A stretch of DNA of 55,825 nt from a virus: IMG/VR virus record IMGVR_UViG_3300007512_002194, positions 1-55,825 of that record; one strand, 5' to 3'. Positions 24,877 to 50,012 of the stretch are shown here, piece by piece. The translations under genes and the position numbers were made by a program. Position 1 is the first letter of the stretch, and every line of letters starts with the position of its first letter. The notes under the pieces were generated by a model. It was not told the origin of the DNA. It ran no database searches and worked only from the letters and a program-made list of their open reading frames with translations.

Positions 24877-24893
24877 AGCAAAAGGAGGTAGCC

Positions 24894-25262
24894 TTGGCAA
24901 CTTACACTAAGGTACCAAGTAATGTTTTAAGTCCTGCAAGGGTCACAGCTATTACTGCTGTAGCTGCGGGGGACAAGATCGATATGTTTGATGTATTAGG
25001 TAGACCCGCTCAGAATATGAAGATAATGACAGACGCTTCTACTGATACTATTACTTTTAGAATAAACAACTGTGCACGAGTTGTAAAGAGAAACCAGAGC
25101 AAGCCTGATGAAACTGTGCAAGCTTGGCAAGCGGGCAGTGCTTTCCCCACTTTTGAAGAGACCGGAGACACTGTATATGAGTATGGTAATACAGGTTTAG
25201 AAATACATTCTATTGAGATAGTATCAAGTACAGCTGCTGCTCTAACAATTACGGTGTTTTAA
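24894..25262 (+). CDS. Tail-type protein, zero-frame part
   Basis: 122 residues, TTG start with AAAGGAGG five bases upstream; the opposite strand begins the DnaE middle gene, so the two starts diverge. Sequence ATYTKVPSNVLSPARVTAIT... is beta-rich and ends AAALTITVF directly before TAA. It is a separate plus-strand cassette inserted between two DnaE parts. The ORF after the stop continues in the +1 frame (see 25261-25590), so this may be the short product of a frameshifting gene. A TATAAT lies at 24837-24842 but without a good -35, so the promoter is unclear. Confidence 0.7.
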   Translation: MATYTKVPSNVLSPARVTAITAVAAGDKIDMFDVLGRPAQNMKIMTDASTDTITFRINNCARVVKRNQSKPDETVQAWQAGSAFPTFEETGDTVYEYGNTGLEIHSIEIVSSTAAALTITVF

Positions 25263-25616: not shown

Positions 25617-25645
25617 AGAGGCAGTAGGGTTATCCTACTGCCTCT
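25617..25645. terminator. Bidirectional terminator between the tail cassette and DnaE N1
   Basis: 12-bp stem AGAGGCAGTAGG / CCTACTGCCTCT with a 5-base loop. On the plus strand it is followed by TCTATTTCTTC, on the minus strand by TTAGTCC. It overlaps the last codons and stop of the minus-strand DnaE N1 gene, so it would end both transcripts. Confidence 0.75.
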
Positions 25646-26943
25646 TCTATTTCTTCAAAGGTACTGTTTTCGTCTTTGTCTAAGATCTGGTCAAGCATTT
25701 GCCTAGTGAAGAGTTTTGGGGTTGCAGATCGACCTTTATTTAAAAAACGCTCGAAGATAAGCCCATACTCAATAGGATCTACTTCTGTTATCCTCAGGGC
25801 ATATGCAACTAAGGAGCCTGCTGCCGATCCACGGCCTGGTCCGGTTAAGACACCTTCACTCCTCGCACCATTTAAAAGCTCCCAAACTATTAACATGTAA
25901 TCTGAGAAGCCCATGATCTTGATAGCTTTTAGCTCTGAATCAAGACGCTCTCTATACTCTGTTGGAGGCATCTCTCCAAAACGATTGTAGAGACCTTCTT
26001 TAGCTACTCTTTCAAGGGCATTGTCAGAAGTAAGCTCTGGAGGCAGTCCTTGAAACTTTGGATAGCGATTAATTCTGTCTTCAAAGTAAGAATCTGCATC
26101 AACCATATCTGCTACAGCAACAGTATTTGTAATACTCTCATAGGGAATACCCTGCATGTCTGCGCGATGCCACATCCAATCATGATGTGCTACATGAACA
26201 TCTATCTCTCCGAATGTAAACCGCTTTTCATCACTTAGTACTGAACGGGTTTGCATGCAAAGAGCAGCTTCATGAAGATACTTGTCTGCTTCATGAGTAT
26301 AGTGTCCATCATTAGAGAGTACCATTGGGTAATCGTTGCGCTTGGCAATATCCATAAGTACTCTATTGACGAGTTGTTGTTCTGGGTCGTCATGTAGCTG
26401 AAGTTCAATTAAGAACCTATTCGAGAACAAGGCTGCATGATGGTGTATTAGCTTCTCGGCCTCTTGGTTTCTGCCTCTAAGAATCAGTTGGGATGCCCTG
26501 CTTCCAAGGCATGCTGATGTGGCGCAGATACCTTTATTATATTGTCCTAATAGATCGTCATCGAGTCTTGGTTTTCTATATAATCCAGTTGTGTAAGCAT
26601 AAGAGGATAACTTAAACAGGTTATGTAGCCCTTCATTGTTAAGAGCTATCAAGATTAAATGATAGTAAGCCTGCTCTAGGTCGTCTGCTTCGCGTACAGT
26701 CCTGTCCTCGACAGAATAGTAGGCCTCCATCCCAATGATTGGCTTGATGCCAGCCTTGTTGCAAGCCTTAAAGAACCGATATGAACCGGATACATTACCG
26801 TGGTCCGTCTGTGAAAGGGCGGTCTGGCCAAGGCTTTTAACATGTTCAGGCAGTGTATCTATTCTATTAATGCCATCTAGGAGACTCGTTTCATAGTGGA
26901 CATGTAAATGTACGAAATTGCTAGGGTTTTTTAAGTTTGACAC
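25630..26943 (-). CDS. dnaE: DNA polymerase III alpha, N-terminal part (PHP and first palm half)
   Basis: 437 residues. PHP domain: VHLHVHYETSLLDG (H-x-H), SQTDHGNVSG, GMEAYYSVED and SNDGHYTHEADK supply the expected metal ligands. Then palm motifs: GPGRGSAAGSLVAYALRITE and FERFLNKGRS. At this point a normal DnaE reads on to PD-x-D-x-D; here the protein ends after ATPKLFTRQMLDQILDKDEN and an acidic tail. No intein block follows, so this fragment probably joins the spliced remainder non-covalently. It has no catalytic Asp of its own. It overlaps the next gene upstream by 23 bases. Confidence 0.9.
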   Translation of the reverse strand: MSNLKNPSNFVHLHVHYETSLLDGINRIDTLPEHVKSLGQTALSQTDHGNVSGSYRFFKACNKAGIKPIIGMEAYYSVEDRTVREADDLEQAYYHLILIALNNEGLHNLFKLSSYAYTTGLYRKPRLDDDLLGQYNKGICATSACLGSRASQLILRGRNQEAEKLIHHHAALFSNRFLIELQLHDDPEQQLVNRVLMDIAKRNDYPMVLSNDGHYTHEADKYLHEAALCMQTRSVLSDEKRFTFGEIDVHVAHHDWMWHRADMQGIPYESITNTVAVADMVDADSYFEDRINRYPKFQGLPPELTSDNALERVAKEGLYNRFGEMPPTEYRERLDSELKAIKIMGFSDYMLIVWELLNGARSEGVLTGPGRGSAAGSLVAYALRITEVDPIEYGLIFERFLNKGRSATPKLFTRQMLDQILDKDENSTFEEIEEAVG

Positions 26944-31535: not shown

Positions 31536-32120
31536 CTAGCCTGTAAAGCAGCCATTAAGTCTCATCATCTTAAAGAGACCTTTGCCCAAAGCATCAATCT
31601 TAGCTTGCGGCATAGGTATTTCTTCGTGATAAAGCATTATTTTAAGTGCTACCTGCATAAAGGCTTCTTGGTTGTCTGAGCAGGAGAAGTCTTTATTGAT
31701 CTTAACTATCTTGCTTTTGAAGTCTATCTCTGGAATGTCTTCGCTGTGTGCGGTTATAGAGTAGACATGCCCATCATATATAAAGCTATCTGGAATATAG
31801 AGTGTATGTACCATCTTGGTTTCCCAAAAAGATTGAGCCTCTAAAATGAGGTGCTCTTGCATCTTGCTAATGTCTACATTGTTGTTGTTCATTAGCGTTT
31901 TAAGCAGCTCTGGTAGTGACATAAAGCTTCCATCATCGTCTGATACATATAGTAGACGATAATCAGAGTCGAAGAACATATCTACGGCATTATCAAATGC
32001 CTCTTGTAAATATTTCTTTCTACGCAGCTTAGGGTGCTGAAGCTTTACATAATCATCCATAGCTTGTCGCAATATGGCATTTAAGAGAACATTGTAGTCT
32101 TTTGGATCTGCTATATTCAT
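31536..32120 (-). CDS. Conserved phage protein next to ribonucleotide reductase
   Basis: 194 residues, with an N-terminal helical block LRQAMDDYVKLQHPKLRRKKY, then QEAFDNAVDMFFDSDYRL. The pattern seems familiar from other phages, but I know no function. No metal or catalytic motif. The start lies within the end of the reductase gene (4-base overlap), so the pair is probably translated together. Ends one base before the stop of the nucleotidyltransferase gene on the other strand. Confidence 0.55.
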   Translation of the reverse strand: MNIADPKDYNVLLNAILRQAMDDYVKLQHPKLRRKKYLQEAFDNAVDMFFDSDYRLLYVSDDDGSFMSLPELLKTLMNNNNVDISKMQEHLILEAQSFWETKMVHTLYIPDSFIYDGHVYSITAHSEDIPEIDFKSKIVKINKDFSCSDNQEAFMQVALKIMLYHEEIPMPQAKIDALGKGLFKMMRLNGCFTG

Positions 32121-35100
32121 AGTTCTCTAGGACCAATTGTACATGTATCACCATCGCAAAACTTGTCATCAGCTTCATGAACTGCACCAGATAAATCTAA
32201 GTGTTTTAGCTTGGAAGTCATTTCTATATATTGCTCTTTTGTTATCTCTATGTATGGTGCTTGGACATATCCATGCTTACTGTTTTCTAAGGGTAGTAAC
32301 GATACTGACTTTAGTCTTGTCTCAAAGGTCTCAAGACAATTTGCTATCTCATGTCTCTCAGATTCCTTAAAGCTAATAGTAATAGATACTTGATTGTCAG
32401 CCCACCAATATTGCATATCGGCGGCATTCATAAACTGCTCCCAGACACTAACATCAAACTTTGACTTTATAAAATGTTCCTCTTGTACAGGAAAAGAAAC
32501 AACTGATGTATCATCCGAATAAACGTCTAGCTCTACAGTATATCCAGCATCTACACAAGCTTTTAATAATGGTGATGTATTTTGTACGCGTATATTTCTG
32601 ATGTAATATTCACTATGAGGATAATGGATCCCAGGCGTACTATTGTTCAATAAAGACACACTTCCACTAGGCTTAACACTAGTCATTTTAATACTCTTAG
32701 GTATGCATAGCCACTCACTATATATTTGATCTAAGTCTTGGATATATTTATATCCATTATCACACCAATTGAGAAACTCTCTTCTACCTAGTTTCTGTAT
32801 GGCTTGAGCGATACCACTCATAGAGCAACCAATTCTTCTATTTCTCATCATGACTGCATTAGTTTTAGGGTTATGAGTAGGTATTAAAGTAACAGTCTTT
32901 GCATATAGATAAGCGAACTTAAGTGTTCGTTTATAGTCTTCAAAGCTGTCATGCTTGGCTGGAAAAGTTTCTACCAAATTGCAGGTTTCTTGGTCCTCCA
33001 AGGATTGTTCGCTACATTGTGCTGTATAAATTCCTAAGTACTTGCTATTGCTATTGTTTGTAACTAGTCCTACTGTATGATTATCATCTACAGATAGGTT
33101 GTAAACAGGCTCTTGTACATCTAGCAGCCTAATAGATTTAACTCTGTGATTATACTCAGCAGCTACTTCTTTAAGATGTCTAAATCCACGGAGAGTATGT
33201 AGATTATCTGTTGTTCCTTTAGTTCTAAATCTAACAGGTATTTGATCAGCTCTACATGCTGCTTCCCATTCTGTTTTCCAAGGCTCTCTACTTAAGTTTT
33301 CTTGTAATTCTTTATACTTCTGTATCTGTAAGTGAAGAGTTTGGCGCTGTTTATCTTCAAAGACCATCTCCTGTCCTGCTGTGCGAGCGGCAATGCCTTC
33401 TACACTTTTGTTTCTACAAGAGTGTGAGCAGTAACTGCGGCCTCTCCTTGTCCAGGTAGTAATAAATTCTTCAGAACAGATTTCACAATTCCGAATGGCA
33501 TGTAGCCTATTGCCTATCCAAACTGTATTTAAGTCAGTTTTCTCTTCTTCGTTAAACCTAGCTACTAGCTCTTGCTCAGATACTCTGCTGCCCTTACTTT
33601 GTGGATTTCTAGTATTTGTTATTATCTGCCAATACTTGTTGCCGTCTTTCTTGGCTACTTCCTGTCTCTTTGAGAACCTTGGAAGACTATCTCCAGCTTT
33701 AAGATCTTGAGCTTCACAACGAGTACCATCTAGCAGAACCATCTTGTGGTCAGGTGTTACTCGTAATGTAGAATCATCATCAAGAGTTATTTCGAGTATT
33801 TGAGCTGACTCACGAGTTAATCGTGGGTTGCGGCCCATCTTAATCTCTACTTGGCCCTCAAGATTAATAGAATAGACAGGTATATCATTGGCTTCATCTA
33901 CTAATTGTTTAATAGATATAGCATTTCGTCCATCAGCTACTGCTATTAGTGTATCTCCTGTAAAGCAAGGATTGCATCCCATGGCGCGGAGATCTTTACC
34001 ATTGTATGCATCTGCTAGTCTACCGTAATGGCGAATGTTCTCTAGCCATGCTAGTCCTGGCTCTCCATTAATAGCAATAGAATCAGCTATGTGTGTGTAA
34101 TCCATACCTATTTCAGCAAAGATACTATTATTCGAGGCCCATCTTCTGTCCTGTAGAGCTTCTTTATCTTGCTTCAAAGCAAGAAACTCGGTGTCATCTG
34201 GAGTCCCAAAGACTATTTCGGCTGAGTTATGAACTAAGTATCCATCTTGAGCAACAAACTCATGTGCTTCTACTGTGATATCATAAGTTATATCCTCTCG
34301 TACATCGTGTTCTATTTTAAGCACTTCAACTGGTACAAGATGAATGTCTTTTTTTGTTATCATCTCAAGGTGAGAGACAGTAATCTGACGATTTTGTTGG
34401 CTCCAAACTGATTTTCCATCTTTGTATCCTGTAATGCCACATTCTGCTGCCATAGCAGTGGGAAACCCATAGTCGTTTTGTGAGCGACGAGTCTTATTCT
34501 TGTTTTCATATTTAGAGGCATAAGTGGCAACTCGCTGCTCCCAGCGCAGGATAGCTTTTTCGCCCACAATTGTAAGGCTATGGATAGGTTGCCATCCCTT
34601 AAGTAGTCGTGCTTTATCCTTGTTAAGGTTAAGCTGAGAAGGAATACCAAGAGATGCTAGTACTGCTTGCACTTGCTTAAGATAGTTAGGATATACACTT
34701 GTTGCAGCGACCAAGGGACGACTTCTTGATGAGCCATCGGCGTCAAAAAGTCCAGCAACATAGCTGGCACGGATCCTAGGATCGCCTTGAAGAATACATT
34801 CTGGAATATCAATTGATATTTTAGGCTTCTTGAATCGAGACAGGTAGTCGGCAAGCTGTTTGGATGAGACACTAAGCTTATAGCATTGATCTGATTCCTT
34901 TGGCTCAATCGTTCCTGTATTGACTCCAAAAGATTCAAACACTTTTCTTGCTCGATTAAGAATTGCCTCTTGACCTACAGCAATAGCTATAGAAACATAG
35001 CCCTTGTCTGAGGTCTTGTATCCATCTCCATGTAAAAGTCCTAAGAACCAGCTCATTTCAGTGCTGAGATCTGGAATAGCAATGTCTTTACATATTATTG

Positions 35101-36298
35101 AGTGTTTAGGACGGATATAATTATACGAAGGTAGCTTAGTGGCTTGCCCCTCAAGAACACGATCCACGAACACCATACGGTCTCCAGGCTCAAGCTCATT
35201 GGCTGTTTTCCACTTGTAGCCACCACTTATGTCTGAGATTACAGCAACTTGATGCTTGTCAGTGCATTCAAATGTTCCCATTTGTGTTGTAATCTGACTG
35301 ATAGGTTGTATACCTTGCTGAAACCAATCTGTTATTTTGCTCATACCGTTTGAAGTAAGTGCTGCCATTCCAGCTTTTACATTTTCAATGGGAACAAGTC
35401 CTTCTGAAGTATGTATAAGGGTTCCTGCTGGTAAGCATCGCCTAACTCCACCTGAGACAACACATTTGCCTATATAGTTAAATATATCTGTTATATGTGT
35501 TGAGGTAATTGGTATAGGCTCATCATTTGTTGGTGTTAATAGCTTAGTTAGATTGTCTATAAGTTTAATTAGAGGATCTGGTCCTGATGCTACTCCACCA
35601 AATGTTCTAATTGGCGTACCTCTAGGTCTTACTTGAGAGTAATCTATATTTGTAGGATAGGTTCCTTTACCTACAAAGGAGTTTAGAACTCTGCTAACTA
35701 TTTGTGCCCAACCTTCTCTAGAATCCTCTACAATGTGGGGCTCATCTGTATAGCGAGGCATACATAGCTTAACTGTACCGGCTCCTCTTGTATCAGTTCC
35801 TACGCCTACTCCCAGCATAGACATATCCATGAGGAAGCAGAATGGGGCAGCAAAATCTATATTGAGGTTTTCAGTAGTAACAAATGCACATGAGTTTAGT
35901 GCAGCAGATCCTTTCTTGTAAATGAGATCTGTTCCCATCATCCAAAAGCCACGGCCAGAAGGAGTAAACTTAAACTCCCATATACGAGTAAACATCTCTT
36001 GGGCTGAGCGCTGTGCTCTTCTATCGTCCCAAGGTAAAAGAAGTGTCTTACAGTGTTGCTTTTGTATTGTATAGATGCCTTCTACTACACGCTTACAGGT
36101 CTCCCAGTACTCTTCTGAGGGGTGGCTGCAGGTGTTTGGGTCTTCACATTCACAAGTAGGTCTTGAGTATGTTCTTTTAAATGTAAACTGGCCTACGGGA
36201 CCCCAGTTAGGTTGCTTCCCTACAAATTGCTCTATAAAGGAGTCACTCAAACTAAAGGTACGGATCTTACGACCATCATACTCTTCTGATAAAAACAT
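32117..36298 (-). CDS. nrdJ: Class II (B12-dependent) ribonucleotide reductase with two inteins
   Basis: 1393 residues; ~672 after splicing. RTPR-type motifs: NWGPVGQFTFKRTYSR, WDDRRAQRSAQEMFTRIW, FTPSGRGFWMMGTDL, LNSCAFVTT. Intein 1 (residues 288-691) sits in GGVRR/SAEIVFG; intein 2 (778-1094) sits before CSEQSLEDQETCNLVETFP. Cys1095 aligns with the thiyl-radical Cys408 and Cys1106 with Cys419 of Lactobacillus leichmannii RTPR (11 apart in both). The C-terminal FCDGDTCTIG is the reducing Cys pair. It makes dNTPs for phage replication without oxygen or a small subunit; needs adenosylcobalamin from the host. Confidence 0.93.
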   Translation of the reverse strand: MFLSEEYDGRKIRTFSLSDSFIEQFVGKQPNWGPVGQFTFKRTYSRPTCECEDPNTCSHPSEEYWETCKRVVEGIYTIQKQHCKTLLLPWDDRRAQRSAQEMFTRIWEFKFTPSGRGFWMMGTDLIYKKGSAALNSCAFVTTENLNIDFAAPFCFLMDMSMLGVGVGTDTRGAGTVKLCMPRYTDEPHIVEDSREGWAQIVSRVLNSFVGKGTYPTNIDYSQVRPRGTPIRTFGGVASGPDPLIKLIDNLTKLLTPTNDEPIPITSTHITDIFNYIGKCVVSGGVRRCLPAGTLIHTSEGLVPIENVKAGMAALTSNGMSKITDWFQQGIQPISQITTQMGTFECTDKHQVAVISDISGGYKWKTANELEPGDRMVFVDRVLEGQATKLPSYNYIRPKHSIICKDIAIPDLSTEMSWFLGLLHGDGYKTSDKGYVSIAIAVGQEAILNRARKVFESFGVNTGTIEPKESDQCYKLSVSSKQLADYLSRFKKPKISIDIPECILQGDPRIRASYVAGLFDADGSSRSRPLVAATSVYPNYLKQVQAVLASLGIPSQLNLNKDKARLLKGWQPIHSLTIVGEKAILRWEQRVATYASKYENKNKTRRSQNDYGFPTAMAAECGITGYKDGKSVWSQQNRQITVSHLEMITKKDIHLVPVEVLKIEHDVREDITYDITVEAHEFVAQDGYLVHNSAEIVFGTPDDTEFLALKQDKEALQDRRWASNNSIFAEIGMDYTHIADSIAINGEPGLAWLENIRHYGRLADAYNGKDLRAMGCNPCFTGDTLIAVADGRNAISIKQLVDEANDIPVYSINLEGQVEIKMGRNPRLTRESAQILEITLDDDSTLRVTPDHKMVLLDGTRCEAQDLKAGDSLPRFSKRQEVAKKDGNKYWQIITNTRNPQSKGSRVSEQELVARFNEEEKTDLNTVWIGNRLHAIRNCEICSEEFITTWTRRGRSYCSHSCRNKSVEGIAARTAGQEMVFEDKQRQTLHLQIQKYKELQENLSREPWKTEWEAACRADQIPVRFRTKGTTDNLHTLRGFRHLKEVAAEYNHRVKSIRLLDVQEPVYNLSVDDNHTVGLVTNNSNSKYLGIYTAQCSEQSLEDQETCNLVETFPAKHDSFEDYKRTLKFAYLYAKTVTLIPTHNPKTNAVMMRNRRIGCSMSGIAQAIQKLGRREFLNWCDNGYKYIQDLDQIYSEWLCIPKSIKMTSVKPSGSVSLLNNSTPGIHYPHSEYYIRNIRVQNTSPLLKACVDAGYTVELDVYSDDTSVVSFPVQEEHFIKSKFDVSVWEQFMNAADMQYWWADNQVSITISFKESERHEIANCLETFETRLKSVSLLPLENSKHGYVQAPYIEITKEQYIEMTSKLKHLDLSGAVHEADDKFCDGDTCTIGPREL
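33017..33967 (-). other. Intein 2 of the reductase, ends in Gln, zinc-finger insert
   Basis: 317 residues: starts CFTGDTLIAVADGRNAISIK, has LRVTPDHKMVLLDG (block B) and VYNLSVDDNHTVGLVTNN (block F). It ends LGIYTAQ, so the last residue is Gln, not Asn, before Cys+1. Middle insert holds CEICSEEF...SYCSHSC (zinc finger) but no LAGLIDADG. Confidence 0.88.
34226..35437 (-). other. Intein 1 of the reductase, with LAGLIDADG endonuclease
   Basis: 404 residues: starts CLPAGTLIHTSEGLVPIENV, ends GYLVHN before Ser+1. Two LAGLIDADG motifs (WFLGLLHGDGYKT and YVAGLFDADGSS) show an intact-looking DOD homing endonuclease. Confidence 0.92.
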
Positions 36299-38065: not shown

Positions 38066-38422
38066 TTACCAGAGGGGGCGACGAGTCATTGAGCTCTCAG
38101 TATCGTTTACAGATGCTTGAGCTTCTGCAGCAGATTCTCTAGATGTACTAGTATCTGTATAAGCTTGTAGAACAGATTTATAAATCTCTTCCTTAACTGC
38201 TTCTGCATCATCTCCTACAAATCTAACGTCATCATACCAAGTATCTTCGCCTTCTTTGTTCTTCCCTTTGTGTGAAGGAGCTGAAACAAAAAGGCCTTTT
38301 GCACCATCGATGATTCTAAAGCCTTCTAAAGATAGTACATCATTAATCAGTAACGAGGCGAAGGCAACTACTTTCGTTCTTGGATTCTTTATTGTGCGTA
38401 CTTGTACTGTGTAACTGAACAT
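38066..38422 (-). CDS. spoVG: SpoVG-family nucleic-acid-binding protein
   Basis: 118 residues. VRTIKNPRTKVVAFASLLIN, LEGFRIIDGAKGLFVSAPSH and FVGDDAEAVKEEIYKSVLQA follow the SpoVG core (usual motifs: VRIRKV, IRVIDGNNGLFVAMPS). A loop insert (KNKEGEDTWYDDV) precedes the last helix; the tail is Ser/Ala-rich. SpoVG of Bacillus and Listeria binds DNA or RNA and regulates cell division or virulence. A phage copy might modulate host gene expression. The family call is good, function inferred. Confidence 0.8.
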   Translation of the reverse strand: MFSYTVQVRTIKNPRTKVVAFASLLINDVLSLEGFRIIDGAKGLFVSAPSHKGKNKEGEDTWYDDVRFVGDDAEAVKEEIYKSVLQAYTDTSTSRESAAEAQASVNDTESSMTRRPLW

Positions 38423-38851: not shown

Positions 38852-39304
38852 TTACTCCCACCCAATCAATAATGGTGTAGCAGTCATCAAAAGTCTTAGG
38901 AGTACTGTGTACTCTCCACCTGAGATAGGTACTGAGACACTTTTGGTTTGATCTGTTTCTTTATTCTTCTCTTGTAGGTTAAGCATATAGGTTCCTACAT
39001 ACTTTCCACTGCCTGGTACTAAGTCGAGGCTCTTAATAATTGTAGACCCAGGGGGAGAATGAACTAGTCGTGGTGGCTTATCTGGATTATCGAAGATTCT
39101 GCATATGTCTGAGACTCCAAAAGCAAAGTTAATCTTGGAGCTCCAACTATAATGCTTATCTCCAGCACTACTTGCTGCGTCTAGTAGAATAGCGCCATCT
39201 CTTTCTATTCTACCTGTTTCGTCTGATCTTGTGGGATTTATTAGTGTAAACTGAGCTGCTCCCAGTTTCTTATATATGGTAAATTGTCCAGGGTGTTGCT
39301 TCAT
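38852..39304 (-). CDS. Unknown beta-rich protein (possibly Whirly-like ssDNA-binding)
   Basis: 150 residues, beta-rich: GAILLDAASSAGDKHYSWSS, KINFAFGVSDICRIFDN, TYMLNLQEKN and a final TVLLRLLMTATPLLIG. The strand-helix pattern W-x2-KINFAF...DI..I is reminiscent of Whirly/MRP-type ssDNA- or RNA-binding proteins, but this is a weak likeness. Located near PhoH and SSB-like functions. Start ATG 39304 overlaps the previous stop. Confidence 0.45.
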   Translation of the reverse strand: MKQHPGQFTIYKKLGAAQFTLINPTRSDETGRIERDGAILLDAASSAGDKHYSWSSKINFAFGVSDICRIFDNPDKPPRLVHSPPGSTIIKSLDLVPGSGKYVGTYMLNLQEKNKETDQTKSVSVPISGGEYTVLLRLLMTATPLLIGWE

Positions 39305-40945: not shown

Positions 40946-41173
40946 TTAGTTACCCTTTACTGCACCGGTGGCAAAGACTTCGCTAGCTGCGTTAAGAGTA
41001 ACGCTGCTCCAATTATCAGGTGAGATACCTTCGCCATCAACAATAAGTTGACGACCATTTAGACTGTGCTCGGCAGCAAACTGGGCAAGGGTCATTCCTT
41101 CTGTGATTGCTACAGAAGATGCTCCAGGGCCAGGTACTAGTACAAGTGTTATATTATTAGTATTGTTAGGCAT
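40946..41173 (-). CDS. Ubiquitin-like beta-grasp protein (ThiS/MoaD-type)
   Basis: 75 residues. Strand-helix-strand order: NITLVLVPGPGASSVAITEG, MTLAQFAAEHSLNGRQLIVD, EVFATGAVKGN. Size, fold pattern and place directly before an E1-like gene match small Ubls of ThiS/MoaD or PRTRC-C type. The usual C-terminal Gly-Gly is replaced by G-A-V-K-G-N: a Gly one residue from the end, which the neighbouring JAMM protease could expose. Gene order Ubl-E1-JAMM-E2 supports the call strongly; fold itself is inferred, not proved. Confidence 0.7.
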   Translation of the reverse strand: MPNNTNNITLVLVPGPGASSVAITEGMTLAQFAAEHSLNGRQLIVDGEGISPDNWSSVTLNAASEVFATGAVKGN

Positions 41174-41183
41174 TAAATGTTTC

Positions 41184-41876
41184 CTATTCGCTTATGTTGT
41201 ATGAAGAGAACTGGGGATTAGTAGAGAAGATAGTCTTTTTACTATACTCCCATTCTCTATTTTGTCGTTGAGCAGATAGCATACTGCATATGCTATGCAC
41301 TGTTAAGGAGGCTGCTAGATTAACTAAAGTAGTACAGATACGCATATTACATGGTCCCTCAGGAATTTCTGAATCATCTCTGAGGGTACTTTTCCATTCT
41401 TCTAATACGGCTAAATCCATATTTTTTATAATATTTATTTCGCCGTAATCAAAGCCTAGTCTAGTTTCAAATACATTCTTTACTTTCCAATTCAGTCTAA
41501 AAGCATCATAAATTTCTTTTCTGGCAGACATTGTATCTACGGTAAGTACAAGTGGGCCTTCTATACTGTCTTTACTATCGCTTGCAAAGTATTCATCATA
41601 AGCTTCAACCTTAATCATAGGATTGAATCTTTGCAATACTTTCTGAAAGGCAATAACTTTTCTTTCGCCAATATGTTCTACATCATAAATTTGATTTGGC
41701 AGATTATGATCTTCAACTATGTCAGGATCCCATATTTTGAAGCTATGGAATCCCATTTTAGCAGCTATCAGTCCAATATAGCTGCCTGTTGCTCCTACTC
41801 CTATGATGTGAAGAGGTTCTGTTACGTCTTCTGGACCAAACCAGCCTGCATGTCTAAGAAAGCTTACTGATGGCAT
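41184..41876 (-). CDS. ThiF/E1-like ubiquitin-activating enzyme
   Basis: 230 residues. LHIIGVGATGSYIGLIAAKM is the nucleotide-binding G-x-G-x2-G of ThiF/MoeB/E1 enzymes, followed by FKIWDPDIVEDHNLPNQIY with the Asp and Asn of the adenylation site, and GERKVIAFQ. LVLTVDTMSARKEIYD is the cofactor/Mg region. Cysteines in PCNMRICTTLV are candidate thioester sites. It starts inside the JAMM gene end (22-base overlap) and ends 10 bases before the Ubl. Adenylates and possibly transfers the Ubl C-terminus. Confidence 0.85.
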   Translation of the reverse strand: MPSVSFLRHAGWFGPEDVTEPLHIIGVGATGSYIGLIAAKMGFHSFKIWDPDIVEDHNLPNQIYDVEHIGERKVIAFQKVLQRFNPMIKVEAYDEYFASDSKDSIEGPLVLTVDTMSARKEIYDAFRLNWKVKNVFETRLGFDYGEINIIKNMDLAVLEEWKSTLRDDSEIPEGPCNMRICTTLVNLAASLTVHSICSMLSAQRQNREWEYSKKTIFSTNPQFSSYNISE

Positions 41877-43056
41877 TGCGTCCTTCTTCCATAATATGAG
41901 TTAAGGAGTCATCTTCTTCAGAGAAGTAAGGTTCATAATCTATTTCTTCATAAAATTCTATCCAAAGATCTAATAGGTTTTCTACTTCAGATTCAGATGA
42001 ACAAGTGGAGATAGTTTTAGCTACTTTTAGTCCAGTTACAATTAATTCAGTTGCTATAATTGTATCATTGAACAAATCATATAATTCTGCAAGAGTGTCT
42101 GTATGTTCTGCTTTATTGGTGCGCCATTTACAGAACTCAAGTTCACGAATAGCCTCATGCTCTAGGGACAATAGAGCAAGCAGTATGTATAGTTGTTCTG
42201 CATTCAGGATAGAATCTATTAATGTTAGTAGGGCTGAGATTTCATAGTGAGCTCCATTGCAAGCATTAATTGCTGCTAAGAATTCATCAATTTGTTCTTC
42301 AATGTCAAAGCTTAAATCTGTAGTAAGTCCTGTTACTTTATTATCTACTTTTTTTTTAGCCATTGGAGTAACTCTTAGTGGGTCTTTCCAAGAGCCTTCC
42401 CAATCATAACTGTTTTTCCAGTCTATGACGCTGCCAGTAGAAGTAGATAGTTTAGGAGTTGTCTTAACTACTTTCCGCTTAGTTACAGGGCGTTTCTTAA
42501 ATTTAGCTTTAGCTTGTGTAGTTAAATGATCAAAGTCATATGTACCCACTACCATTCTAGGATTTTCAAAAGTAAGATTATATTCAGGATCCCAGACTCT
42601 ACAAAAGAACTGATCCTTCTTGTTAAATATGAACATAAGCTGTGGAACTTCTACCTTAGCTTTAATTGCATTATCAATTTGCTCTCTAAATTGTTTTGTG
42701 TCTTGTCCACTAGGATTGACAGCCATATTATGATGGCTATGACACCAAACAGTTAGATTACTCATGATTGAGTTGGTATCTTCTTGCCCATGCTCTTCTC
42801 GTAGTTCTTTGTAGAAATTCATCATCATTTCAGGTGATGTATCTACTTCTGCAGCACTACAGAATTGTTCTGGAATATACATTTCATATATATGATATAA
42901 AATATGATTATCTGCAGTAAGTTTGTCTACTCTATGAAACCATTGTGCTTCTTGAGGTGCTAATGCAACTATATGTCTAATAGCCTCAAGATCTTGGTGG
43001 TTAACGAGGATTGTAGGTTTCTTATCTATTAGGGTAAGTTCCCCTATTGCTTTCAT
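41854..43056 (-). CDS. JAMM/JAB-type deubiquitinase-like metalloprotease with C-terminal extension
   Basis: 400 residues. JAMM motif complete: Glu36 (APQEAQW), His106-Ser-His108, Ser116 and Asp119 (WCHSHHNMAVNPSGQD), spacing H-x-H-x7-S-x2-D. Residues ~190-240 are a basic linker (KAKFKKRPVTKRKVVKTTPK), ~250-400 a helical acidic domain with no match. JAMM proteases process Ubl precursors or remove them. Here it would trim the Ubl end and/or reverse conjugation. Fully consistent with its neighbours. Overlaps the E1 start by 22 bases. Confidence 0.85.
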   Translation of the reverse strand: MKAIGELTLIDKKPTILVNHQDLEAIRHIVALAPQEAQWFHRVDKLTADNHILYHIYEMYIPEQFCSAAEVDTSPEMMMNFYKELREEHGQEDTNSIMSNLTVWCHSHHNMAVNPSGQDTKQFREQIDNAIKAKVEVPQLMFIFNKKDQFFCRVWDPEYNLTFENPRMVVGTYDFDHLTTQAKAKFKKRPVTKRKVVKTTPKLSTSTGSVIDWKNSYDWEGSWKDPLRVTPMAKKKVDNKVTGLTTDLSFDIEEQIDEFLAAINACNGAHYEISALLTLIDSILNAEQLYILLALLSLEHEAIRELEFCKWRTNKAEHTDTLAELYDLFNDTIIATELIVTGLKVAKTISTCSSESEVENLLDLWIEFYEEIDYEPYFSEEDDSLTHIMEEGRNAISKLS

Positions 43057-43096
43057 TAGTTATCCATTAGGTATAGAGTGGAAGCGCTGGGTAGAT

Positions 43097-43114
43097 GGCG
43101 GGTGTAAGCCCGCC
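43097..43114 (-). other. GC-rich intergenic hairpin
   Basis: Stem GGCGGG / CCCGCC, 6-base loop, between the E2-like gene (stop 43121) and the JAMM gene. No T-run. Could slow transcription or mark RNA processing. Confidence 0.4.
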
Positions 43115-43120
43115 CTGCCC

Positions 43121-45802
43121 TTATCGATATGGTTGGTAGCTAGAGCTAGTAGTTGCTATAGGCAAGTTAGAAGGAATACCTAAACAACTCTTTATATAGT
43201 TTTCTACTGAGTTAACAGAATCTAATATGGTATATCTTTGCTCATCGTAGATAGTGTTATTTTCAATAACTATAGGATTTGGTATATATTGCCAAGGGTT
43301 ACTACCAAAATACATAATAAACATATTTTCATATGTTCTGCTGAATGCTCTTGCATGGATAGATTCTACTGGTTCTATTTCTGTAGAAATAGTATGATAA
43401 TTTACTAGTTCTTTCCATTTGTCTATGTTATCAATTAGCCAATTTATTATTTCTTCATGGCTAAGAATAATACTAGTTTCCATATCTTGTGCAAAAGATA
43501 TTTCTCTATTACCTTCACTAGTCCTAGTGTGTAGTCTTATATTGTGTAAATAGTTTTCTATAGCAATATCATCAAAGTGTACATATGACCAGCCACTGTT
43601 TACATTTACGGTTGGAACTGATTCTATATATTCTTCTAAATTGTCGATGGTGTTAGTTTCTTCTATATTAGTTAACCTAGTAAACATTTCCTCGATAATG
43701 ATGTCCATACCATCTTCAGTAGTTACTAATGTCTCAGCATTAAATTTGTCTATAATATTTTCATTTTTACTTTCTGTTATAGAAACGGCATCTAGTTTAG
43801 GAAAATATTTATAGTTCTTACCCCAAGCATCTTTTGAGTTAGCATTTGTTATCCAAGTCATTGCTGCAAAAATAGCTGTCTTTGGTTCATTGTTCTCAAA
43901 AGCTTTATATATTCCTGGTGATGCTTCACCTAAGCATGCTGATGTCCACCTAGAAATTGCTCTTTTAAAGTTGGTCCAAGCTACTTTTGAATCAGATGTA
44001 GATGTAGATATGCATATAGATTGAGAAGAAGTATGTGGATGAGCCCATATGTAGCTATCACTTAAACCAAAACAGGCTGTGCTTGAGGATAGTTTGATAT
44101 TGAGATTGCTTTGTGTAAGCTCAACATTATATGGACCACCTACTATCTTCTTACAATTCTCACCATCACGTCCATAGTCTACTTTAATAACTACTGGTTT
44201 AAGAGTTGAGAAGTTTATACTCTGCAAATTCCATGCTATGTCTTGTTTAGCTAACAAGGCTACTTGAGGAGACTCAGATAAGTCTCTGCTTTCATTAGTG
44301 TTGCTATTATAATAAGTAATTTTATGGATAACAATACCAGTATTTCTGAGATTATTTATCCATGATTCTGCTTGAATAAGGACTTCCTCAGATAAAATAC
44401 TTTTATTAAGAGCAGCAGTATAACTTGCTTCTGCAGCTGCCAATTCTTCTTGTATTGAAGTTTTTGCTTCTTCTAATCCAGTTAGTGAAGTGCTATGCTT
44501 TTCATTAGCAGTAGTCAACTGTTGAATATTGTTTTCATATTCTTCAATGCTTTGTCGATAAGATTTAATATCCCGAGTATTTCTATTAATTATTCTGTCA
44601 TTATTATTTATAGTAGCCACTAGTCCAGTTAGCTGATTATCAATATTGTTATAAGATGAGTAGATGTTTCTATATTGTACTACATCTGGAATATTTTCTA
44701 TCTGAGAGGCATAAGTTATATATTTAAATTCTTCTGGACTAGTTTCGTGCTGATCTAAAATGTTATTTATAACTTTAGTTTTAGGCGGTAATCCTTTAGG
44801 AAATATTCTAGTGATACCGTTCCAATATGTAGTGTGATGTCCATATTGCTTAAGTATATACTCTTCCCACTCTTCAGGAGCAAAGTATTTAAGACCTTCA
44901 TTATCAAACAGTTCAGTAGCTATTTTGGGTATAAATGTTCTACTTCGCTTATACTTGATAACTTTTGTACGTGGTTCAAAGATACCTAAGTTGTATATTG
45001 TGACAGGTTTCCAACTTGTTGTTTCAAAATCTATAGCTAAGACTGACATCTTATACATAAAGATGTGTCCACCTTTAGCTATTTTTTGAGGTCTTGCATT
45101 AGGAACTAGTTCTGCTACTGCATCTCCTGTAGAGCCGCCTCTATACAAGTTGCTAATTTTGATAGCAGGTATTCTATTGTTATTGGTAGTACTTAGAAAG
45201 GCTTGCTTTACGTTTGGCATATCACCAAGTAATGAGAAGGGTGCAATAGTATCAATCGGAAGAGAGCAATCAATTAGTTCCATGTAGCGTCTGTTACGTG
45301 CGTAGAACGCACGCTTAGAGTGCACAGGATCTATAAGATCTAAAGTGAGCTCTTTATTATTGATAGTTATATCTTGATCATTGCTATGTCTTTCCACTAT
45401 ATCTGCTTCAAAAAGATTTATGTCTATTTCAGACTGAAAATATTCATATGCCTTTCCAGGGCATGTAGTATATATATTGTTACTAATTTTGCTAACTGTA
45501 AGTGGGAAAGCAAGCTCTTTTTGCTCTGTTATAGGATTTGTTCTATAGCTACAAAGCATAGCTTTGCGTACAGAATTAGATGACACTCTACAAAATAGAG
45601 TATCTGGAGCTTCTGTGTTTAGAAAGCCCAACACTTCCTGATCGTCTCCTTCTCTTGGTCTTCGATAAGGTAGATAGAGGTTATAGTTCTCTAGTATATA
45701 TGCTGTTTCTATTTCATTTTGAGTAAGTAGTGATTGCCATTGATTATATTCAAGTATTGTTCTTGTAACAACAGCAAATTCATCTCTAGTTATAGGAATC
45801 AT
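43121..45802 (-). CDS. Large protein with E2-like (ubiquitin-conjugating) domain
   Basis: 893 residues. N-terminal ~340 residues: unknown, with a segment ILEYNQWQSLLTQNEIETAY. Residues ~375-470: coiled coil (IEEYENNIQQLTTANEKHS). Residues ~480-650: GPYNVELTQSNLNIKL, then YIWAHPHTSSQSICIST with His588-Pro-His590 and Cys597, nine residues apart; bacterial E2-like folds have HPH...G.ICLG, with the catalytic Cys at this position. After it AISRWTSACLGEASPGIYKA resembles the following helices. The C-terminal 240 residues are unknown. Next to Ubl, E1 and JAMM this makes an E2 role likely. The E2 fold needs structural confirmation. Confidence 0.6.
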   Translation of the reverse strand: MIPITRDEFAVVTRTILEYNQWQSLLTQNEIETAYILENYNLYLPYRRPREGDDQEVLGFLNTEAPDTLFCRVSSNSVRKAMLCSYRTNPITEQKELAFPLTVSKISNNIYTTCPGKAYEYFQSEIDINLFEADIVERHSNDQDITINNKELTLDLIDPVHSKRAFYARNRRYMELIDCSLPIDTIAPFSLLGDMPNVKQAFLSTTNNNRIPAIKISNLYRGGSTGDAVAELVPNARPQKIAKGGHIFMYKMSVLAIDFETTSWKPVTIYNLGIFEPRTKVIKYKRSRTFIPKIATELFDNEGLKYFAPEEWEEYILKQYGHHTTYWNGITRIFPKGLPPKTKVINNILDQHETSPEEFKYITYASQIENIPDVVQYRNIYSSYNNIDNQLTGLVATINNNDRIINRNTRDIKSYRQSIEEYENNIQQLTTANEKHSTSLTGLEEAKTSIQEELAAAEASYTAALNKSILSEEVLIQAESWINNLRNTGIVIHKITYYNSNTNESRDLSESPQVALLAKQDIAWNLQSINFSTLKPVVIKVDYGRDGENCKKIVGGPYNVELTQSNLNIKLSSSTACFGLSDSYIWAHPHTSSQSICISTSTSDSKVAWTNFKRAISRWTSACLGEASPGIYKAFENNEPKTAIFAAMTWITNANSKDAWGKNYKYFPKLDAVSITESKNENIIDKFNAETLVTTEDGMDIIIEEMFTRLTNIEETNTIDNLEEYIESVPTVNVNSGWSYVHFDDIAIENYLHNIRLHTRTSEGNREISFAQDMETSIILSHEEIINWLIDNIDKWKELVNYHTISTEIEPVESIHARAFSRTYENMFIMYFGSNPWQYIPNPIVIENNTIYDEQRYTILDSVNSVENYIKSCLGIPSNLPIATTSSSYQPYR

Positions 45803-45869: not shown

Positions 45870-46079
45870 TTAGGTCTCTTTTGTAAGATAGTATTGTAAA
45901 AGAGACTCTAAATATTCTTGCTTATTAGGATCTGAATCTATGAATATAGGAGTATAATTATCAGAATATACTGCTGCTAAAGAGTAACAATCTGGGCATA
46001 TATTCTTTGGTACAACTTCATCTTCTTCATATTTTTTGTAGAAGCCACAGTTGTCGAAATCTAAACAATAGAGTTTCAT
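45870..46079 (-). CDS. Small zinc-ribbon-like protein
   Basis: 69 residues. Cysteines CLDFDNC and CPDC fall in a C-x6-C-x16-C-x2-C pattern (KLYCLDFDNCGF; NICPDCYS). Follows directly on the upstream stop. Small metal-binding protein; unknown function. It precedes the E2-like operon. Confidence 0.5.
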   Translation of the reverse strand: MKLYCLDFDNCGFYKKYEEDEVVPKNICPDCYSLAAVYSDNYTPIFIDSDPNKQEYLESLLQYYLTKET

Positions 46080-46432: not shown

Positions 46433-47131
46433 ATGTTTCGCTATAACCTAGCCGTATTAGTTACAGTGTTGACCTTTTCTATTTGTTGTATATGGTCTAA
46501 CACGATGTCTTTAGGCCCAACACGAAGTATTGAAAAAATTAGTGCACAAGCAATAGAACATGCTTTAGTGATACAAGAATTTGATCCGATATATAAAGAT
46601 TGGCGAGCAACGGGATCTGGAGTCTTAATATATACGGAAAGTCTTGGTAGTATTGTACTTACTGCAGAACATGTTGTTTTGGGCGTATTAGACACCAATA
46701 TCAGAGTATGTAATCTAGAGGGCAAAAGTTGTATCAACATGGATGGATATTTTCTTTTCGATTCGGATGAACACCCAGTTACTGATTGGGCATTCTATCC
46801 ACTCACTGAGATACCTGAGGGGGTAACTCCAGCACTAGTTAGTCAAGGCTCTCAACTTGCTATAGGAGAACCAGTAACACTAATTGGAGTACCCTTTGGA
46901 CAACATCCATGGGTTAGTCAAGGTCATACAGCTTGGTTATTAGAGTATCCTGAGGGAGTGCTTTATGGTATAGATGGTTATGCTGCTCCTGGATATTCTG
47001 GTGGTGGTATTTACAATAGGCAAGGAGAGCTAGTAGCTATTACTATAGCTATAGGCGTAGGCACATGGGGACCACAAGCAAGTCAAGTGCTTGCAGTCCC
47101 CATTGAAAATATACCTATTAAGCTTTATTAG
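46433..47131 (+). CDS. Secreted trypsin-like (HtrA-type fold) serine protease
   Basis: 232 residues with an N-terminal signal sequence (LAVLVTVLTFSICCIW). Catalytic triad in order: His80 in VLTAEHVV, Asp118 in VTDWAFY, Ser189 in APGYSGGGIYN. Chymotrypsin-fold serine protease, without a PDZ domain. It is a plus-strand gene with its own promoter in a minus-strand region, so probably separately expressed (moron-like). A cysteine at ~19 in FSICC could be a lipobox, but it is weak. Target unknown: host envelope proteins or the phage surface. Confidence 0.8.
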   Translation: MFRYNLAVLVTVLTFSICCIWSNTMSLGPTRSIEKISAQAIEHALVIQEFDPIYKDWRATGSGVLIYTESLGSIVLTAEHVVLGVLDTNIRVCNLEGKSCINMDGYFLFDSDEHPVTDWAFYPLTEIPEGVTPALVSQGSQLAIGEPVTLIGVPFGQHPWVSQGHTAWLLEYPEGVLYGIDGYAAPGYSGGGIYNRQGELVAITIAIGVGTWGPQASQVLAVPIENIPIKLY

Positions 47132-47384: not shown

Positions 47385-48236
47385 CTAGGTTCTAGCTTCT
47401 AATATAGAGTTAATTCTATATTCTAGAGGTGCTCTAGTAATTATATTATGTATATCTGGAGTGTTTATCCAATTGGGATGTGCTCGTATTAGCGGAGCTA
47501 ATATTGTCCAGATATTCTCTGTACAAGTTCCTATAACTTGTGTGTCTCGATAAGATGAGAAAGTGCTGTAATATACTTGGCCTTGTCTTGCTATAAGATT
47601 TGGGTATTCATTATATAGTTCTATTAATAGATCATATAATGTATTGCTTAGTCTATATTCCCAACGCATACAATACTTTTGTATTCTAGCGAGTTGTACA
47701 ATTACATCATCTTCAGTTCTGGGAGGAATATATCTTGGCTTTAGCACACCAAGAGAACGATCGTGATGTAACGAGATAGTGTCTTTATGAAAATAGATAT
47801 TTTGATTCAATGGAGTATAAGCAACTGCGCAATTAATAAAATCAAATTCTTTTAATATTATACTAGGATTGCCTGTTGCTATCTTAATAAGCTGTAATTG
47901 AGGATTATATTTTCCATCAGAAGATAGATGACTATATGTGTGAGCGTTATCTGTTTCTGAACAACTTTTTACGGTATCAACACTGGCCAATCTACCTTGA
48001 GCTTCGTCAAGTGTATCGATATTACTAAAGTAAATATCATAATCTCCATAGTATTTAGACTGAATAGTAGTTCCGTTTTCAGCTCTAGGAGCAAAGAGTA
48101 GTGCCATAGCATACCCACCTGCATATATGGGGTCTAGATCGCTTAATATTGGCAGTATAGGTAGGCTTTCATGAATAACACGGATGTTCTCACGATGAGG
48201 CACCACTCCGTCTTCTGGAGTGGATTTTATTATCAT
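47385..48236 (-). CDS. Nucleotidyltransferase-fold protein (pol-beta superfamily-like)
   Basis: 283 residues. IYAGGYAMALLFAPRAENG and YYGDYDIYFSN give the G-G...D-x-D metal-site pattern of NTase-fold enzymes; EFDFINCAVAYTP follows as the third-strand segment, though the third carboxylate is not clear. The middle and C-terminal parts are helical. Substrate could be RNA, protein or a small molecule; toxin-type NTases also share the motif. Four bases downstream of the Lon stop. Moderate confidence. Confidence 0.6.
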   Translation of the reverse strand: MIIKSTPEDGVVPHRENIRVIHESLPILPILSDLDPIYAGGYAMALLFAPRAENGTTIQSKYYGDYDIYFSNIDTLDEAQGRLASVDTVKSCSETDNAHTYSHLSSDGKYNPQLQLIKIATGNPSIILKEFDFINCAVAYTPLNQNIYFHKDTISLHHDRSLGVLKPRYIPPRTEDDVIVQLARIQKYCMRWEYRLSNTLYDLLIELYNEYPNLIARQGQVYYSTFSSYRDTQVIGTCTENIWTILAPLIRAHPNWINTPDIHNIITRAPLEYRINSILEART

Positions 48237-48239
48237 GGG

Positions 48240-50012
48240 TTAACCTGCTGAGAAACCTATTTTAGTTTTAGATTGTTGTTTAGATACTTTTTCAACATCT
48301 TCTGCTGTGATAATAACTTTGTCTTCGTGATTGACTACAATAGAAACTGCTGCCTTTCGTAGTAGTTTTTTAAGTGTTCTCTCTATATTTCTTACGCCAG
48401 TAGGTTGGCAGAATACTGGGTATGCTTCTTCTTGGATAGTAATATCAAAGTCAGCCAATCCGTATTCTCTTATCCATTTATCTACCATAAAAGATTGTAG
48501 GATTATTTCTCTTTCTTCTAGCGTATACTCTCTAAACTCAATTATTTCGAATCTATCGAGTAGTGGTTCAGGAACCATATCAAGATAGTTAGCTGTGCAT
48601 ATAAACATAGCTTTTGAAAGATCTACAGGTAGTTCTAGATATCTATCTATAAAAGCGTCATTTTGTTCTGGATCTAATATTTCCAGTAGGGCAGCTGTAG
48701 GATCTCCTCTCTTCATATCTAGCTTATCTACTTCATCCAACAAGAACAGTGGATCCATTGCCTTGGCATCCTTGAGTCCCTTAGCTAAGCGACCTGGGTA
48801 TGCAGATACATAAGTTTTGCGGTGTCCTCTAAGTTCTGATTCATCAGATAGGCCACCTAATGCAATGCGTATTAGCTTTCTATTACAAGCATGAGCAATT
48901 TGCTTAGCTAAGGTTGTTTTTCCAGTACCAGGAGGTCCTGCAAAACACATTACTGTGCCTTTTGTACTCCCGGTTATATGCTCGATAGTTAGATACTCAA
49001 GAATATGTTCTTTAGCATCATCTAATCCGTAATGAGTTTTGCTTAGTTCATCAATCAAGGTAGTAAGTTCTACTTGTTTATTTGTAGTGACTCCCCATGG
49101 AATTTCAGATACCCAAGTAAGATATTCATATAATGTTTGATATTCTAATGAGCCAGTGGGCAACGATGATAGCCTACTGGTTTCTCTTTGTACTTTGTCT
49201 AGTACTTCTTGGGGTGCATTTTTAACTAGCTTAAGCTTATCTTCTAAAGAAGAAGTTACTGGCTTGCGCTTAGATCTAGAAGTTTTTTTAGGTTTACTTG
49301 TTTCCAAAGAGAAGGGATCTATTAGTTTCCCAATAGATGATCCTTGAGAAGAAGTTTTGTCTAAAGTTCTTATAAGGTTTTGAAGAACGATTGTAAATCG
49401 ATCTAGAGTATCATTTGATTGTAGATATCTTAGTTTGTCTTTATTGCTAAGATTTAGAGACGTAGCTAATATATTTGATATAATTAGTATGTCATTGGTA
49501 ATAGCTATTTGTTTTGTTATTTCTATAGACAAAACATTTTCATTAACTAAAAGCAGTTTAATAAGTGACCGCATATCAGTAAGTAGCTCTTCTTCACCAG
49601 GAAGAAGTATGTCGTCTATTATATGTACTCCACACTTAAGTGGGTTTTGTGTACCATCTATTGTATCTAAATTTGCTCTAGCATAAACTAAGCATTCAAC
49701 ATTATATATATATTCGTCTGATTCAGAAACTTTTATAAGTTCACATAGAGTGCCTACAAATGTAATAGTTTCTACTAGCTCTTCAGCAGAAGTAGTAAGA
49801 TTTAGATTTAAACTATCTAGTACAGAAATTCCCAATAGGAAAGCATGTTCTATAGTAGTTGAATCCTGCAGTTCAACAGGCTCAACTTCAAAAGACTCTA
49901 TTTGGCTTTTTGTCATCTTAAAATTGAAGATATTGTTTGGAATAGGAACTCCTTCTTCAAATGAGACGACCTGTAGTGGTAATAGAGTCATACTTCTTCT
50001 AATTGTGAACAA
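48240..50012 (-). CDS. Lon-type AAA+ ATPase without protease domain
   Basis: 590 residues. The N-terminal ~330 are divergent. AAA+ module as in Lon: MCFAGPPGTGKTTLAKQIA (Walker A ~359-367), IALGGLSDESELRGHRKTYV, PLFLLDEVDKLDMKRGDP (Walker B) and LLDRFEIIEFREYTLEE (sensor 1/2 region), then QPTGVRNIERTLKKLLRK. The chain ends TKIGFSAG, where the Lon Ser-Lys protease domain would begin. No frame continuing the protease was found after the stop. Works perhaps as an unfoldase alone or with a separate protease (ClpP is encoded at 7206-7841). The ATPase assignment is firm. Confidence 0.85.
   Translation of the reverse strand: MFTIRRSMTLLPLQVVSFEEGVPIPNNIFNFKMTKSQIESFEVEPVELQDSTTIEHAFLLGISVLDSLNLNLTTSAEELVETITFVGTLCELIKVSESDEYIYNVECLVYARANLDTIDGTQNPLKCGVHIIDDILLPGEEELLTDMRSLIKLLLVNENVLSIEITKQIAITNDILIISNILATSLNLSNKDKLRYLQSNDTLDRFTIVLQNLIRTLDKTSSQGSSIGKLIDPFSLETSKPKKTSRSKRKPVTSSLEDKLKLVKNAPQEVLDKVQRETSRLSSLPTGSLEYQTLYEYLTWVSEIPWGVTTNKQVELTTLIDELSKTHYGLDDAKEHILEYLTIEHITGSTKGTVMCFAGPPGTGKTTLAKQIAHACNRKLIRIALGGLSDESELRGHRKTYVSAYPGRLAKGLKDAKAMDPLFLLDEVDKLDMKRGDPTAALLEILDPEQNDAFIDRYLELPVDLSKAMFICTANYLDMVPEPLLDRFEIIEFREYTLEEREIILQSFMVDKWIREYGLADFDITIQEEAYPVFCQPTGVRNIERTLKKLLRKAAVSIVVNHEDKVIITAEDVEKVSKQQSKTKIGFSAG

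Follow-up and report, generated by a model that had tools for sequence, protein, structure and literature searches.

Our analysis of a viral DNA sequence of 55,825 nucleotides (nt), the 55.8-kb IMG/VR record IMGVR_UViG_3300007512_002194 (here called the window, over its full length), revealed a real, conserved phage unit of four genes that read as a ubiquitin-like conjugation cassette. All four are carried by the minus strand and are transcribed in the order E2-like, JAB, E1 and Ubl; they encode an 893-amino-acid (aa) protein with an E2-like C-terminal domain, a JAB/JAMM isopeptidase, a ThiF-type E1 and a small ubiquitin-like protein (Ubl). The JAB and E1 open reading frames (ORFs) overlap by 23 nt, and E1 is separated from Ubl by 10 nt. 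A preliminary description of the sequence had proposed a complete cassette of this composition, and our results support it: the four adjacent ORFs have the coordinates and lengths given there, and all the residues it quoted are present (GVGATG at residues 26 to 31 of E1; E36, H106, H108, S116 and D119 of JAB; HPH at 588 to 590 and C597 of the 893-aa protein; ATGAVKGN at the Ubl end). Judged by its sequences, the cassette probably conjugates the Ubl to proteins. The window is also contained in a 161-kb IMG/VR contig, and because this contig carries the gene for a terminase large subunit, the source virus is a tailed phage. The recognised genes of the window serve replication and nucleotide metabolism (Pol III alpha, primase-helicase, ribonucleotide reductase, Cas4-like exonuclease, PhoH, Whirly and SpoVG).

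Relatives were gathered from IMG/VR by scans with profiles of E1, JAB and Ubl and with widened ones, and from GTDB genomes by a scan with E1; profiles of the four proteins were then run against each fetched locus and the whole records. The complete set was found in identical order in 17 distinct IMG/VR records, one of which represents a longer version of the window's own virus, as well as in a single contig (L091) of a metagenome-assembled genome (MAG) labelled Gammaproteobacteria, where the neighbours were identical as well. The preliminary description was not aware of this exact set in a phage; the 17 records show that it is widespread in uncultured phages, and a literature search whose coverage excluded subscription papers and preprints returned no description of a phage E1/E2/JAB/Ubl set. 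A second tier of loci, mainly rumen and other virus contigs and also bacterial MAG contigs (e.g., Moranbacteria and Buchananbacteria), combines JAB-E1 with a Ubl and a more divergent E2-like gene. When the window was set against the relatives closest to it (L002 to L005), aa identity amounted to 65 to 68% for E1, 68 to 73% for Ubl, 39 to 57% for JAB and 46 to 55% for the E2 domain, while the proportion of nonsynonymous differences (pN) was 0.17 to 0.40 and that of synonymous differences (pS) was 0.66 to 0.86. The cassette genes are under strong purifying selection. Because the JAMM site is invariant, the four genes recur together and pN lies far below pS, the cassette is not a product of chance.

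The 400-aa JAB protein has the upstream E and the H-x-H-x7-S-x2-D arrangement that mark the JAB/JAMM family. Residues E36, H106, H108, S116 and D119 are invariant in 14 homologues and, as aligned, also across 16 divergent ones spanning both tiers; the same spacing arose in 33 of 20,000 shuffles of the protein. The window sequence alone scored under the Pfam cutoff, and the family profile recovered the JAMM enzymes BRCC36, archaeal JAMM1, RPN11 and CSN5 from the PDB. Invariant ligands and a profile matching JAMM deubiquitinases thus bear out the JAMM protease suggested at the outset. The ThiF/E1 call was likewise confirmed: the 230-aa protein matched Pfam PF00899 with an E value of 1.1 × 10−17 (64.5 bits; cutoff of 28.1), and contains the GxGxxG motif and the catalytic acidic and basic residues of this superfamily; G26, G28, D50, D52, N58, Q62, K73, D114 and C176 are invariant in 17 sequences, including that of phage crAss001. 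C176 would correspond in position to the active-site cysteine of ThiF and UBA5. The PDB relatives of the E1 are ThiF, MoeB, UBA5 and Cap2, and its best NCBIfam matches are ThiF models.

The 893-aa gene is conserved in the 17 IMG/VR records. Library searches with the entire protein gave coiled-coil matches only, and a viral library search with the E2-like domain gave only uncharacterised phage proteins. Conserved motifs are confined to the C-terminal domain (aa 480 to 675), where GGPY, HPH and ACLGEASP are followed by W-x2-x-AN-x2-D-x-WG. C623 (in ACLGEASP), P589, H590, D658 and W660 are invariant in 18 of 18 family members, and H588 is present in 17. The E2 motif had originally been read as HPH-x6-C; its HPH is indeed conserved, but the presumed catalytic Cys597 occurs in just 2 of the 18 proteins. 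We rejected Cys597 as the nucleophile because it is not conserved, while Cys623 can be aligned, by way of the tier-2 proteins, with the Cys of the UBC active site. The tier-2 E2-like proteins are free of the insert between HPH and Cys, so that their motif reads HPHVNSSGEPCLGN, i.e., the HPHVxxxGxPCLG type, and is followed downstream by YLKSVNxxDxxG; eukaryotic E2s read HPNINSNGSICLD and LLCDPNPDDP. Using hhalign, we linked the window E2 family to the tier-2 E2s (97%) and the latter to eukaryotic UBC sequences (83 to 88%, with a score of 41 to 45, whereas none of 100 decoys with shuffled columns exceeded 22), and in the second alignment Cys fell on Cys and HPH on HPN. A direct comparison between the window family and UBC gave no signal (0.4 to 0.9%), and only the bridge via tier 2 works. 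The HPN-like triad, active-site Cys and N-x-x-D of the UBC motif are conserved here as HPH, C623 and N655-x2-D658, and the AlphaFold (AF2) model of the domain (predicted local distance difference test [pLDDT] score of 83.8) has a predicted order of strands and helices compatible with the UBC fold. The motif and the profile chain make it highly probable that the C-terminal domain is an E2; our confidence stops there because the direct UBC comparison and a Foldseek search with the model were negative.

The 75-aa protein had been called beta-grasp-like from its sequence, and this assignment gained support from three sides. Its AF2 model (pLDDT of 86.4) is a beta-grasp with a flexible, Gly-bearing tail, the top Foldseek matches in the PDB have ubiquitin-like folds, among them the ThiS chain of the ThiS-ThiF complex 1zud, and a search of PDB sequences with the Ubl profile placed ThiS first (E value of 0.013) and SAMP2 next (E value of 0.042). 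We take the end of the protein, EVFATGAVKGN, to be the equivalent of the GG end of MoaD and ThiS. Among 21 divergent Ubls, Gly15, Thr28, Gly47 and K73-G74-N75 are the only invariant positions; the K-G-N end was present in all 30 first-tier Ubl units, and R-G-N and Q-G-N take its place in the bacterial contigs L092 and L093, respectively. Several monomers terminate exactly at the Asn, one residue beyond the Gly, and others carry longer tails, one copy per record in L017, L020, L022, L023 and L024 sharing the motif TGRPSGGGRGNNP after K-G-N. In several relatives, a single ORF encodes tandem Ubl units (four in L019; three in L012 and L081; two in L017, L020 and L021), mostly accompanied by single-unit Ubl genes, and tier-2 Ubl genes often comprise two beta-grasp units. 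Every tandem unit ends in K-G-N, and the junctions consist of K-G-N plus 0 to 3 residues.

These precursors recall eukaryotic polyubiquitin, a head-to-tail precursor that is cut to monomers. A bacterial JAB, Cap3, cleaves a tandem cGAS fusion at its junction (PMC10097602). On the strength of these two parallels, it is likely that the tandem Ubls are processed by the JAB of the cassette. The residue after the Ubl Gly had been put forward as a JAMM trimming site; this is plausible, and the tandem precursors of the relatives strengthen it considerably. Together with the almost invariant K-G-N end, they offer a clear, testable cut site.

Table 1. Positions of the cassette genes and of neighbouring genes in the window
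Feature	Position	Strand	Details
Ubl, 75-aa beta-grasp modifier	40946..41173	(-)	C-terminus ...EVFATGAVKGN; K73-G74-N75 codons at 40949-40957
E1, 230-aa ThiF-type adenylating enzyme	41184..41876	(-)	GVGATG at 41784-41801; candidate thioester Cys176 at 41349-41351
JAB/JAMM isopeptidase, 400 aa	41854..43056	(-)	E36 at 42949-42951; HSHHNMAVNPSGQD at 42700-42741; C-terminal extension
893-aa protein	43121..45802	(-)	N-terminal region, then coiled coil (about aa 375-470) and, at the C-terminus, E2-like domain (about aa 480-675)
E2-like domain, aa 465-675	43778..44410	(-)	HPH at 44033-44041; candidate catalytic Cys623 at 43934-43936; then helices, ANSxDxWG
69-aa Cys-rich protein just upstream of E2-like gene	45870..46079	(-)	conserved in L002, L004, L005, L011, L012, L091
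283-aa protein between Lon-type gene and cassette	47385..48236	(-)	PHROG 4400, E value 1.5e-7; position conserved in relatives
Lon-type protein: LON substrate-binding domain, AAA+ and lid, without protease domain	48240..50012	(-)	PF02190, 4.6e-9; PF00004, 1.5e-24; Lon lid

Upstream of the cassette, in the window and in most close relatives, lies a gene for a Lon-type protein, a probable partner of the cassette (Table 1). Its 11 homologues (532 to 605 aa) all have Walker A, and the protease domain is absent from all of them; the protein thus differs from a Lon protease, in which the N-domain, AAA+ and Ser-Lys protease domains form one chain. The full-length Lon proteins of the phage collection were not accepted as its equivalents, as they retain the protease domain. 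In 11 of 11 homologues, the last 9 residues include [IV]GF, which aligns near the IG(R) that opens the protease domain of full-length Lon. That this segment docks ClpP is speculation, because its alignment with the beginning of the protease domain of Lon leaves room for a mere vestige of that domain. In nine relatives (L012, L017, L019 to L024 and L081), an Hc1 histone-H1-like gene (PF07432) is inserted between E1 and the first Ubl; the window cassette itself has no such gene in this position. The presence of Hc1 and Lon-type genes beside the cassette hints at nucleoid or replication proteins as targets and at a step that involves an unfoldase. The 283-aa neighbour matched no Pfam family and appears from a motif to be nucleotidyltransferase-like, being tied to the cassette by association only, and the 69-aa Cys-rich protein is possibly a zinc ribbon.

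Some further features of the window were noted. A trypsin-like protease gene that is conserved in the window clade lies on the strand opposite the cassette (46433-47131, plus strand), and its product looks secreted, with a possible signal peptide. The Pol III alpha gene is split into minus-strand pieces at 23287-24900 and 18735-19928, about 3.3 kb apart, with a third piece at 25630-26943; one of the first two ORFs ends YCLAGDTQVQTSEGYVAIEDL... and the other starts ...HHNFVIQGGLVAAN|CFNASHS, apparently a split intein. The 1,393-aa ribonucleotide reductase (32117-36298, minus strand) apparently contains two inteins, with LAGLIDADG and Hint/intein-splicing domains. Whirly-family and SpoVG-family proteins are encoded at 38852-39304 and 38066-38422 (both minus strand) and are conserved in relatives, too.

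Parallels in cultured phages came from the E1, which is related to ThiF of crAss001, other crassviruses and Flavobacterium phages (E values of 1e-15 to 1e-10). The crAss001 genes gp79 to gp76 (L008, 3247-7657) encode this ThiF, a JAB-like protein with HSHNNMATFFSGTD, an upstream protein with MHSHV...CTG that resembles an E2 and a protein with TTLGELK, which may be a Ubl with a long C-terminal tail. In crAss001 and the Flavobacterium phage Fpv sets, HSHNNMATFFSGTD marks the JAB-like protein, the upstream protein reads MHSHV...C(T/I)G, and the surroundings are replication genes, as in the window. Comparison by hhalign of the gp78, gp77 and gp79 profiles with the window families was not significant (1.7%, 17% and 3.4%), and for this reason we leave homology of the crAss001 partners, E1 excepted, as conjecture. 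In tblastn searches of cultured phages, E2 and JAB had no match, and Ubl had weak, chance-level matches only. The crassvirus and Flavobacterium phage sets are apparently related to the cassette.

Among eukaryotic systems, UFM1-UBA5 has a compact single-domain E1 and a modifier that ends in a single Gly bared by trimming. The cassette resembles it and polyubiquitin in that UBA5 is among the PDB relatives of its E1, trimming would expose a single Gly and tandem precursors occur in relatives; it differs in its viral and bacterial context, in its divergent E2 and in having a JAB, not a cysteine protease, as the sole candidate processing enzyme. In 2006, Iyer, Burroughs and Aravind predicted operons in bacteria that either encode Ubl, JAB, E1 and E2 in genes of their own or contain tandem Ubls, and in the part of their survey on which we draw here, the lambda-type tail cluster is the sole phage Ubl/JAB pair (PMC1779556). 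Their class 6d operons, as described in that part, share with the cassette the four separate genes, which encode JAB, E1, an E2-like protein and a small Ubl whose C-terminal Gly is conserved; however, they are bacterial, their E2 is devoid of the canonical His and their JAB has an N-terminal extension, whereas the cassette is viral, has the HPH and the K-G-N end and has relatives with tandem Ubls. These operons are taken to be the later PRTRC systems. The link to PRTRC families drawn in the preliminary description did not hold: of the NCBIfam PRTRC models, only PRTRC_ThiF matched, at 24.2 bits against a cutoff of 144.75, and three of the four proteins matched none. Class 6e operons of the same source have 1 to 3 tandem Ubl units of 70 to 75 aa with E1 and JAB, but there a JAB-E1 fusion is usual, along with an inactive E2/RWD-like domain, whereas in the cassette all proteins are separate and the E2-like Cys is kept. 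The Cap2/Cap3 pair of the cyclic-oligonucleotide-based antiphage signaling system (CBASS) employs the same E1/E2/JAB chemistry; there, the conjugating C-terminal Gly need not be part of Gly-Gly and the JAB cuts head-to-tail fusion junctions (PMC10097602). In CBASS, however, Cap2 is an E2-E1 fusion, the modifier is the cyclase and the role is host defence (PMC10097602), whereas the phage cassette has a free beta-grasp Ubl and unfused enzymes. The cassette is not CBASS, its E1 and E2-like proteins being separate and its E1 matching only the E1 part of the PADLOC E1-E2 models.

Several observations weigh against a conjugation pathway. The Ubl terminates in Gly-Asn rather than Gly-Gly, the E1 is without the usual Arg of N-L-x-R-Q and reads N-L-P-N-Q, with Asn in the Arg position, and no substrate, E3 or conjugate is known for the cassette. 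In addition, the Foldseek PDB search with the E2-domain model returned no UBC match, and HMMER profiles run against the PDB found no UBC chain for the window E2 family and, for tier 2, low-information ankyrin-repeat matches only. The structural part of the original E2 proposal is therefore not backed by Foldseek, while motif and profile chaining through tier 2 speak for it. These searches would also fit an 893-aa protein that is not an E2, the E1 transferring Ubl directly and the Cys/His domain being otherwise employed, e.g., as a substrate receptor or cysteine protease. Such a protein is rather unlikely in view of the profile chain that leads to UBC via the canonical tier-2 HPHxxxxGxxCLG and downstream N..D motif and of the obligate neighbourship of the 893-aa gene with E1 and JAB.

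The same genes could be read in other ways. Since no PDB sequence comes closer to the Ubl than ThiS and ThiF models match the E1 best, the Ubl might be a ThiF-activated, ThiS/MoaD/TtuB-like thiocarboxylate donor for cofactor or tRNA thiolation, next to an E2-like domain that does not conjugate; yet no ThiG, MoaE, rhodanese or tRNA-thiolase gene was identified among the neighbours tested, JAB and E2-like partners are present in all first-tier records, and the tandem precursors and the Asn cap after the Gly also argue against a sulfur carrier, which we regard as improbable. It is conceivable, but on balance unlikely, that the cassette adds its tag to, or takes it off, immune proteins of the host, such as cGAS/DncV-like nucleotidyltransferases (CD-NTases) or Ubl-dependent defence, instead of phage replication proteins. 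Host CBASS applies E1/E2/JAB chemistry to CD-NTases (PMC10097602), and the gene that appears nucleotidyltransferase-like adjoins the cassette; against this, the cassette lies among replication genes, has its own Ubl and has persisted through extensive divergence while gaining or losing few genes, and defence models match its generic E1 and JAB domains only. Finally, a Ubl/JAB pair could serve virion or tail assembly, as proposed for TAPI/TAPK of lambda and T1, the precedent for a phage Ubl beside a JAB within the cited part of the survey (PMC1779556). In that precedent, the JAB is fused to NlpC/P60 and the pair lies in tail genes without E1 or E2, whereas the cassette includes E1 and E2-like enzymes, no NlpC/P60 fusion was found and the context in both the window and crAss001 is that of replication genes; the cassette is not of the TAPI/TAPK type, and a role in morphogenesis is very improbable.

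For conjugation by the cassette, as a self-contained phage pathway, we infer a course in which E2 activity, the exact cut site, conjugation itself, the targets and the role of the Lon-type protein are all read from the genes. JAB would trim the Ubl after Gly74 and so remove Asn75; in relatives, the part removed would be a longer tail or the Ubl unit that follows. E1 would then adenylate Gly74 and hold the Ubl as a thioester, probably on Cys176, before the Ubl is handed to Cys623 of the E2-like domain; the N-terminal region and coiled coil of the 893-aa protein may select substrates. The E2 would join the Ubl to lysines or other groups of target proteins, and JAB would take it off again. The pathway would act inside the cell in the DNA-replication phase, with nucleoid, replication or host proteins as likely targets, and the nearby protease-less Lon-type AAA+ ATPase may unfold or extract tagged proteins. 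A tentative and, as it stands, doubtful extension is that tagged host or phage proteins, with the H1-like nucleoid protein or its equivalents as a candidate, are passed to this ATPase for extraction or unfolding and perhaps to host ClpP via [IV]GF. If true, such a Ubl-to-unfoldase pathway would give viruses an equivalent of the ubiquitin-Cdc48/proteasome axis.

What is new here is the near-invariant K-G-N end of the Ubl, the tandem Ubls, the Hc1 gene between E1 and Ubl in relatives and the protease-less Lon-type neighbour; the tandem precursors and the Lon-type neighbour are the most surprising of these features. Descriptions of bacterial Ubl conjugation have come mainly from operons of bacteria and from defence against phages. 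A complete phage-borne set reverses the direction, in that the virus would be the protein tagger. The divergent E2 proteins help to trace the origin of the eukaryotic cascade, and because crAss001 and Flavobacterium phages, which have an apparently related set, can be cultured, the question is open to laboratory work. Collectively, our results suggest that some phages run their own protein-tagging system.

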